Shown: one piece after another, positions 1 through 6,966 of the stretch
How positions within the stretch are numbered: position 1 is the first letter of the stretch
Layout: each line of letters starts with the position of its first letter
Source of the DNA: Aeriscardovia sp.
GTDB lineage: Bacteria; Actinomycetota; Actinomycetes; Actinomycetales; Bifidobacteriaceae
Direction of reading: 5' to 3'
DNA: 64,000 nt
Assembly (NCBI GenBank): GCA_017405305.1
Contig: JAFRAT010000001.1
Location: 1-64,000, forward strand
The notes under the pieces: model-generated
Told to the model about the DNA's origin: nothing
The model's database searches: none
Seen by the model: only the letters and a program-made list of their open reading frames with translations
Translations under genes and position numbers: made by a program

Positions 1-2219
1 CCGTCCGCGCCGGACTGGAAGACGCACACGGTCGCCGAACCCGGATGATCGGGAACGTTCCACGTCTTCTTGACGGTGATAGTGGACGGAGCGGTCTGGA
101 TGACCGGCATCGGATACGTCGAATCACTCGCCGCACCAGTCGTGGTTGTGGTGGTTGGCGTGGTGGAGCCGGCCGGCGTGGAGGTCACGGTGGTGGTGCG
201 GCTCCAATTGACGACAGTCGCTTTCTTGTTGTTGGAGTAGAAGCCTTTCTTTTCCGCCGAGGTGACGCCGGTGCCGGCGTCGCCGGTGTCCGGGTAGGCG
301 GCAGTCGTGTTCGCGCTTGGATACTCGGTGTCGTAGTCTTTTTGGACGGGCTGCACTTCGAAATTGATTGTGTAGGTCGCGCTGTCGGCCGGCACGAAGC
401 CCTTCCCGTTGTCGAAGGTAACTTTGATCGTGCGGGTTGTGGCGTCCCAATAGGCTTTGTAGTCGGGCGGCGTCGCGGAGTTCGACGCCGTCAGCGTGAC
501 GTATTTGGTGATGTCTTGGCTCGTGTTCTCGTTCCATTGCGTCGGCACTGGTTCATCATTGCCGGACAGGGCGTCGGTGATGGAGTACACGCGGTAGGCG
601 TTGGTGATCGTCGTGCCATCCGTCGTGTTCGTCAAGGTCTTGCCTGTGACGTCGAGATGGAGGTCGTACGTGCCGTCACTGTTCTTGCTGACGTATTTCG
701 CGTGGGCTGGCTCTGGCAGGTCCGTGTTGGCGATGTCGATGGTGCCGGCCTGACTCAGTAGGCCTTTAAGGTCGACCGCATTACTGGCAGCGACGCTCGA
801 GTAGTTCTCAGAAGGCAGTTCGCCGGTCAGCGCATTGGGCCAGCTAGTGGATGCGTTGGAGAAGTCGTCGATGGACGTGGCGACGTTCTGCACGCTGGCG
901 GAGTAGGTCGGCGTGTAGCCGACGATGGGCGCTTCGACGGCTGTGTAGACATGGCCTTGCGGGCCGGCCGGGACGTGGATGGTCTGCGTCCAGTCATTCG
1001 CCGCGTCAAGCGTTACCGTGTCGTAGTCGTTGTTCGTGCCGGACGCGGAACAGGTGCGGCTCGTGTTTGCCTCCGACGTCGATGAGGAGCTGCTCGAGCT
1101 GCCGGCAGTGGTGTTCGTGGCGCCGGTGCCATTGATGTTGGGCGCGTCTGGTGACGCGTTTTGGAACACGCAGACGGTAACGGAATCGGGCTTTGTTTCC
1201 GTGCTGTTCCAGGTTTTTTTGATGGTCAGGCTCGAGTCCCAAATCGGGTATGTGTCACTTGGCAAATAGACGAATTGGCTCTGGCTTCCCCAACCGCCAC
1301 CGCCGCTCTCACTAAACCCGGAGTCTAGTCCGATTACATAGATGCCGGGGGTGCCGTTGTACTGGAGGGTCTCACCCGCGAAGTAGTTACTACCATTCGG
1401 TCCGAGGCCGCCACCCGTGACGCTCGTGTAGGACGCGACCCGGTCCGCGCCGGGGTATCGCTCGTCATACTGCTGCTGTGTGGGAATGACTTCAAACCAC
1501 CACTTGTAGGCTTCGCCGCAGCTAAGAGCGAGGCCGCTCGTACCGTTTATGGTGATTGTCAGGAGCTGTTTGGAAGCGTCCCAGTAGGCGGTGTAGGACC
1601 GGACCGCGGATTGGCCGCTGGGCTTGCCGTATACTTGCCACTGAGGCTGAGGATGGATGTACTGCGTCACGTCCTGGCTGACGTTCCGGTTCCATTGGGC
1701 GGGAGCGTTATAGCCCCGCGGTAAGTAGAGGTCGATGCGCTTGAACAACGTGGTGTTGAACTGGCCTGATATCATGACATAGGACCACGGCGCGCCTTTC
1801 CATGTCGACCCGTTTAGACTCGTCGATTGAAGCAGTCCCGTTGCGTAAGGTACCTGGTAGGGGTTGCTCCATGGCTCGGCTGCGAAAGAACCCGTGAGCT
1901 GCCGGACGGACGCCCCTGCCCCGGTGCCCAGGGCGGAAGCCGTCCCCACTGTGGCGTTCATCGGTTCGAAGCTCGATGCCGTCACGATCTTGGCGGGCGT
2001 TCCATCAGCGGTGCGCGCTAGCACTTTGGCCGTAGGCTGACTGCCATTCGTGCTGACCTGCGCTGTCCTCTGGTCGGCGACTTGCGTGACGGAAGCCGCT
2101 CGCGCGACTGGAACCAGCCCGACCATCATTGCGACGGCTGCAGCACTGGCGGCAAGTATCGCAGGCCACCGTTTTCGAGCACGCACCCTGAGCCGCATGC
2201 CCCCCCTCATATGCGCCAT
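1..2219 (-). CDS. Cna_B-repeat surface protein precursor (partial, 3' end outside window)
   Basis: The minus frame stays open from the ATG at 2219 to the window edge (739 codons, no stop). The N-terminus is a secretion signal: a basic stretch (residues 9-18), a hydrophobic core (19-39) and an ARA|A cleavage site near residue 41. Two long repeat units follow, about 385 residues apart. Each begins with QWN-x-N-x-SQD (residues 175 and 561), continues with a Y-x-AYWDA segment, and leads into a Cna_B-type strand ending KKTWN (residues 338 and 721) then TVCVFQ. Such beta-sandwich modules are known in Gram-positive adhesins and pilins, often with isopeptide bonds. The cysteine in TVCVFQ is shared by both modules. 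A sortase motif would lie outside the window. Possible starts are ATG 2219, 2210 and 2198; a seven-G run separates the first two from the third. Adhesin or pilin function is inference. Confidence 0.8.
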   Translation of the reverse strand, partial: MAHMRGGMRLRVRARKRWPAILAASAAAVAMMVGLVPVARAASVTQVADQRTAQVSTNGSQPTAKVLARTADGTPAKIVTASSFEPMNATVGTASALGTGAGASVRQLTGSFAAEPWSNPYQVPYATGLLQSTSLNGSTWKGAPWSYVMISGQFNTTLFKRIDLYLPRGYNAPAQWNRNVSQDVTQYIHPQPQWQVYGKPSGQSAVRSYTAYWDASKQLLTITINGTSGLALSCGEAYKWWFEVIPTQQQYDERYPGADRVASYTSVTGGGLGPNGSNYFAGETLQYNGTPGIYVIGLDSGFSESGGGGWGSQSQFVYLPSDTYPIWDSSLTIKKTWNSTETKPDSVTVCVFQNASPDAPNINGTGATNTTAGSSSSSSSTSEANTSRTCSASGTNNDYDTVTLDAANDWTQTIHVPAGPQGHVYTAVEAPIVGYTPTYSASVQNVATSIDDFSNASTSWPNALTGELPSENYSSVAASNAVDLKGLLSQAGTIDIANTDLPEPAHAKYVSKNSDGTYDLHLDVTGKTLTNTTDGTTITNAYRVYSITDALSGNDEPVPTQWNENTSQDITKYVTLTASNSATPPDYKAYWDATTRTIKVTFDNGKGFVPADSATYTINFEVQPVQKDYDTEYPSANTTAAYPDTGDAGTGVTSAEKKGFYSNNKKATVVNWSRTTTVTSTPAGSTTPTTTTTTGAASDSTYPMPVIQTAPSTITVKKTWNVPDHPGSATVCVFQSGAD

Positions 2220-6503: not shown

Positions 6504-6966
6504 CGTCAGAGCGTTCTCAAGGACGCTTCCCGTGAAAACCGAGATCGAAAATCTCCGCAGCATTTCGGAACAGCTGATGGCGGCCTTGCCGGCCTGCTGC
6601 TCAACGGCTTTCAAACGGTCAATGGCCGCCGCCTCCGTCGGCTCTTGGCAAAGCATGGGGGTGGCTTGCGTGGCGGAATCCTTCTCCTCGGGTGCGTGGT
6701 GGGCGCCTTTGTCGACGTCACGCTCCTATCGATCAAGCATGGCATTCATGACGACGACTTCCGCCACGGGCCTTTCATTTGCCGGCCGTGTTCTTCCCCA
6801 TCATCGTTCTCTTCCTGAAAACACGTTCCATGGTCGCTCGCCCAGCACCGATGTTCTTGCGGGAATCGCGTCTGGGCGCGGTTGACGTGCTCGATGATCC
6901 AATCACCGTTTCCGGTAGCGCTGGCGGCCGTCTCCAGCAGCAGAGCTTGCCCCCCCCCAGCTTGAG
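6504..6966. other. Gene-free, apparently decayed stretch
   Basis: No frame can be supported. On the minus strand some short open segments read like ordinary protein (for example 6530-6720, which includes EKDSATQATPMLCQEPTE) but are separated by stops. They may continue the broken gene just upstream. A run of nine C bases lies at 6950-6958. Confidence 0.45.

Follow-up and report, generated by a model that had tools for sequence, protein, structure and literature searches.

A run of seven guanines (G7) lies in the translation-initiation region of a gene for a secreted, probably LPMTG-anchored adhesin in an Aeriscardovia species from the gut, and its candidacy as a phase switch is weak at best. 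We consider it somewhat more probable than not that the tract is a short and probably slow or inert run rather than an efficient phase switch. The analysis concerned a window consisting of the first 64 kb of contig C8 from a genome of 1.1 Mb in 20 contigs (G000), which was compared with two sister genomes (G001 and G002). The comparison set comprised three genomes of the genus, one per species. The features on which the argument depends are listed in Table 1.

Table 1. Features of the adhesin start region and other homopolymeric tracts in the source genome
Feature	Contig	Position	Strand	Description or basis
5' part (741 codons) of secreted surface-protein gene running off the contig	C8	1..2225	-	Translation
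Exact match to the first 141 bp of C15, within the paralogue	C8	1..141	-	Sequence identity over 141 bp
Signal-peptide-like segment MRLRVRARKRWPAILAASAAAVAMMVGLVPVARA	C8	2097..2198	-	Translation, judged by eye
In-frame ATG immediately 3' of the tract	C8	2196..2198	-	SD would be the G tract, at 2 nt, -10.7 kcal/mol
G7 tract (C7 on the plus strand)	C8	2200..2206	-	Codons 7 to 9 (AGG GGG GGC) from GTG2225; direct sequence
In-frame ATG immediately 5' of the tract	C8	2208..2210	-	Without its own SD (-2.9 kcal/mol)
ATG, in-frame alternative start	C8	2217..2219	-	SD spacing of 12 nt
GTG, probable main start codon	C8	2223..2225	-	SD GGGGAGGG at 6 nt, -10.9 kcal/mol
Shine-Dalgarno-like GGGGAGGG	C8	2232..2239	-	Serves GTG2225 at 6 nt and ATG2219 at 12 nt
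Possible -10 element TATACT	C8	2281..2286	-	Sequence only, without a good -35
Second promoter-like match, weak consensus (TTGAAG-18-TATCAT)	C8	2363-2334	-	Sequence match
G9	C3	26088-26096		Type ISP restriction-modification gene; tract a short distance before its called start
G10	C10	6008-6017		2 nt before a TTG preceding a signal peptide; LPMTG protein with InlB-type repeats
G10	C10	31420-31429		5' part of a gene, before an N6_N4_Mtase DNA-methylase domain
G11	C11	192609-192619		MmeI-type (type IIL) restriction-modification gene; joins frames of 318 and 694 codons, assembled out of frame
C9 (coding strand)	C15	2506-2514		vWA-like surface paralogue; called start about 115 nt downstream of the run
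G11	C18	7117-7127		Near a sortase; called start of a SpaA-like LPXTG pilin gene follows 153 nt downstream
G7	C20	82778-82784		Separated by 6 nt from the downstream ATG of a lipoprotein-like gene; within the end of the preceding frame

Start codons and reading frame around the G7 tract

Read on the minus strand, the sequence around the starts is GTG(2225) CGT ATG(2219) GCG CAT ATG(2210) AGG GGG GGC ATG(2198), and all four potential start codons are in frame with the signal-peptide-like sequence. The tract and the three in-frame ATGs that an earlier note on this DNA had described are borne out by the direct sequence. That list of starts omitted GTG2225, however, which has the best-spaced Shine-Dalgarno (SD) sequence. 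SD sites were scored as duplex energies against a generic anti-SD (ACCUCCUUUC), and the spacing reference was a set of 160 predicted genes in which the SD is clear. The commonest spacing in this reference was 4 to 6 nt; a spacing of 2 nt was found in 11 of the 160 genes. By this test, GTG2225 is the best start and probably the main one. The case for it is tempered by the predicted fold of the leader, in which a hairpin (z of about -2) overlaps part of the 2225 site and may partly mask its SD. ATG2198 had been described as lacking a spaced ribosome-binding site. The spacing is indeed poor, but the tract itself is SD-like, and its distance from ATG2198 would lengthen with the tract, from 2 nt at G7 to 4 to 6 nt at G9 to G11. 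Either of the two promoter-like elements farther upstream would possibly place the transcript start 5' of all four start codons.

At G7, each of the three upstream starts opens a frame that reaches the contig end after 736 to 741 codons, and the assembled state is therefore ON (in frame). Computed tract changes of -2, -1, +1, and +2 left products of only 27 to 73 codons from starts 2225, 2219, and 2210, as anticipated by the earlier claim that the gain or loss of one G would silence the gene from 2219 or 2210. The companion claim, that a start at 2198 is immune to such shifts, also holds; frame closure by a change in tract length does not apply to ATG2198. Because a slipped G would truncate a product translated from GTG2225 or ATG2219, the site is frame-sensitive in principle.

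The adhesin gene and its broken locus

The assembled part of the adhesin shows a surface-domain pattern that repeats and includes KKTWN motifs, and it is related to the vWA-like paralogue on C15; it had no match in Pfam, NCBIfam, or PDB. The contig breaks at the start of C8 because of the 141 bp shared with that paralogue. At the right end of C15, the minus strand encodes ...VVYGLPMTGGSTARCRAVLWAGAALALVAAGAYALWKRRNSDK followed by a stop, that is, an LPMTGG tail carrying an LPMTG sortase signal. A segment homologous to the end of the adhesin as assembled on C8 runs unbroken into an LPMTGG tail on contig C54 of G002, where the tail region matches a streptococcal pilin isopeptide-linkage domain. 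Gene order points the same way: in G001, pepO is directly followed by an ABC-F gene, and in the source genome, pepO lies on C15 and the ABC-F gene adjoins the adhesin on C8. On the basis of the tail, the continuity in G002, and the order of pepO and the ABC-F gene, the right end of C15 is likely, but not proven, to be the 3' end of the adhesin gene, and the protein is likely to be sortase-anchored through LPMTG.

The middle of the gene is absent from the assembly. The two sortase (PF04203) genes of the genome are located on C14 and C18, and neither is on C8 or C15; part of the adhesin locus is missing from the assembly. A homologue search with the N-terminal part of the adhesin matched its own genome only, and the matches in G002 were confined to the shared 3' domains. 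No surface gene was found between pepO and the ABC-F gene in G001. When named genomes were searched, the adhesin query found no relative, and the query with the C15 paralogue matched a contig of an Aeriscardovia sp. metagenome-assembled genome (MAG).

Tract length and the competing readings

Pattern searches combined with the reading of selected stretches gave genome-wide counts of 9 exact G7/C7 runs (the adhesin tract being one of them), 6 G8, 9 G9, 7 G10, 4 G11, and 1 G12 run, so that tracts of G9 to G12 totaled 21. These counts were set beside a 298-kb sample (C11:1-220000 and C8:1-78000), for which expectations were derived from Markov models of orders 2 to 4. In the sample, G/C runs with lengths of 5, 6, 7, 8, 9, and 11 were observed 155, 7, 3, 0, 4, and 1 times, respectively; the expected numbers were 153 to 165, 16 to 29, 2 to 4.5, 0.8, 0 to 0.5, and 0. 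G7 runs occur at about chance frequency, and a clear excess is seen only for G9 and longer. Because the G7 count is close to the Markov expectation, the length of the tract alone is unremarkable. More surprising is its location within a start region (zones of candidate starts make up about 0.5 to 1% of positions), but this was judged post hoc.

The composition of coding sequences gives a different impression. None of 476 Gly-Gly pairs in the sampled genes contained a run of G6 or longer, and synonymous codon choice would be expected to encode Arg-Gly-Gly with a G7 in only about 2.5% of cases. Given this avoidance, a translated G7 is mildly unexpected here. It may represent a slippage site that is tolerated or kept, or the run may be untranslated, with ATG2198 as the start. 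The idea that G runs are the usual SD in this genome was rejected, since G5 runs showed no enrichment immediately 5' of starts (1 of 155).

Comparison with characterized systems bears mainly on length. Replication slippage switches two sortase-pilus clusters of Bifidobacterium breve UCC2003, in each case at a G tract close to the beginning of the first gene in the cluster (Penno et al. 2022, PMC9187656). Bifidobacterial pilus tracts, proven or predicted, range from G8 to G13 (PMC9187656). The adhesin, which belongs to the same bacterial family, resembles bbr_0113 and bbr_1889 of that strain in that a secreted sortase substrate (here a probable one) is encoded by a gene with a G tract close to its start, a start codon precedes the tract, and the frame decides whether a full-length product is made (PMC9187656). 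It differs in that the B. breve tracts are G10/G11 at the two tested loci, are assembled out of frame, and have length variation proven in cells, whereas the adhesin tract is G7, is in frame, is known from one assembled sequence, and has an in-frame ATG directly 3' of it. In addition, no sortase gene was found beside the adhesin, the locus being broken at the contig end. The closest match in length is siaD of Neisseria meningitidis, likewise a surface-related gene with a seven-base G/C tract at which slippage can shift the frame (PMC5953494). Gene and organism are unrelated to ours. Switching at the siaD G7 was observed, but at a reported <10^-5 that is judged too slow for efficient phase variation, and the tract was considered a chance run (PMC5953494). 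A Campylobacter survey used a cutoff of at least 7 and noted demonstrated switching at G8 and longer, with shorter tracts possibly inefficient (PMC6321876); a Neisseria survey used a cutoff of at least 9 (PMC5953494), which leaves the adhesin tract at or below both cutoffs. In meningococcal deep sequencing, variable homopolymers were mostly of length 8 or more (PMC5084427).

Several of these observations favor the reading of the tract as a short, slow or inert run: G7 is at chance level (9 runs) in a genome where G9 and longer tracts far exceed the Markov expectation, the tracts reported to vary in bifidobacteria, Campylobacter, and meningococci are longer, the siaD G7 is slow, and GTG2225 combines an ideal SD spacing with a frame that is open as assembled. 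The tract would then be a short homopolymer in the initiation region of the gene for an adhesin that bears a signal peptide and probably an LPMTG anchor. Translation from GTG2225 or ATG2219 would be favored, and a slipped G would truncate the product, but with seven G's the slippage rate is presumably low and such mutations would be rare. This reading has to accommodate the coding G7, which codon usage makes unexpected, the hairpin that may cover the 2225 site, and the longer tracts that the genome keeps at surface and restriction genes. In a frame-shifting phase switch, slipped-strand replication would alter the number of G's, and translation from GTG2225 or ATG2219 would lose the frame ahead of the signal peptide; the adhesin would be turned ON or OFF in a subset of cells, G7 being the short end of a strain-variable tract. 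We regard such a switch as unlikely. It accords with the early stops of every variant from the upstream starts, with a secreted and probably sortase-anchored product, with the poly-G control of sortase pili, which the earlier note had rightly called known in bifidobacteria and which is shown in B. breve (PMC9187656), with the 21 tracts of G9 and longer, some of them at the 5' ends of or inside restriction and LPXTG genes, and with the avoidance of runs of G6 and longer in ordinary coding sequence. The tract, however, has only seven G's, a length that is not over-represented and is known from a single assembled strain, and ATG2198 could maintain some expression at every tract length. The proposal of a candidate switch was soundly reasoned with regard to geometry and product; what counts against it is a length below G8 to G13, at chance frequency, and judged too slow at siaD.

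A start at ATG2198 would make the G run an untranslated leader and a poorly spaced SD. The frame would be irrelevant, and tract length would tune the spacing, so that the tract would act as a dimmer and not as a switch. The strong SD-like pairing of the tract, a spacing that grows with tract length, and the avoidance of long G runs in coding sequences are consistent with such an arrangement, as are other G runs shortly before starts (C10:6008, G10 plus 2 nt plus TTG; C18:2790, G8 plus 2 nt plus ATG; C20:82778, G7 plus 6 nt plus ATG). At the corresponding place of the C10 orthologue in G001, moreover, there is no tract but a plain SD with an ATG. We nevertheless find a start at ATG2198 doubtful, given the rarity of 2-nt spacing among the reference genes, the better SD/start pair at 2225, and the lack of G5 enrichment before starts. 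The two devices might also be combined: slippage would abolish the product of the upstream starts, and ATG2198, with the tract as its SD, would keep a low output that rises toward G9 to G11. The result would be a leaky, graded phase switch instead of an ON/OFF one. The LPMTG gene at C10:6008 has a similar arrangement, but we give this combination very little credence.

Longer tracts elsewhere in the genome

Stronger candidate contingency loci are located elsewhere, namely, the MmeI-type restriction gene (G11), the DNA-methylase gene on C10 (G10), and the LPMTG gene with InlB-type repeats (G10). At the first of these, the 694-codon frame comprises MmeI methylase, TRD, and C-terminal domains, and the tract is a strong candidate for phase-variable restriction. 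At C10:6008, a frame from an upstream ATG (MDPKALVGLAPSPTGGGS) stops just after the tract. The G7 run on C20 is apparently used as a normal SD.

Two further tracts were considered as parallels to the adhesin and set aside. The G11 run on C18 is a candidate only, since a separate start for the pilin lies about 150 nt beyond it and the orthologues in G001 and G002 have no comparable run. The C9 run on C15, which reads as C on the coding strand, is equally long in G002, where the flanks differ by small indels, and no variation was seen.

If the adhesin tract does switch, the poly-G control of sortase-anchored surface proteins known from Bifidobacterium would also apply to Aeriscardovia and would work with as few as seven G's. 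A more robust result is the tract list of the genome, with 21 runs of G9 to G12 in 1.1 Mb, several of them at restriction-modification and LPXTG genes. For tests at the level of reads, these longer tracts are preferable to the adhesin G7. The window itself contains a second C7 run (2703-2709), which is intergenic and lies about 500 bp 5' of the start of the adhesin gene, and a C9 run (6950-6958) outside the called genes.
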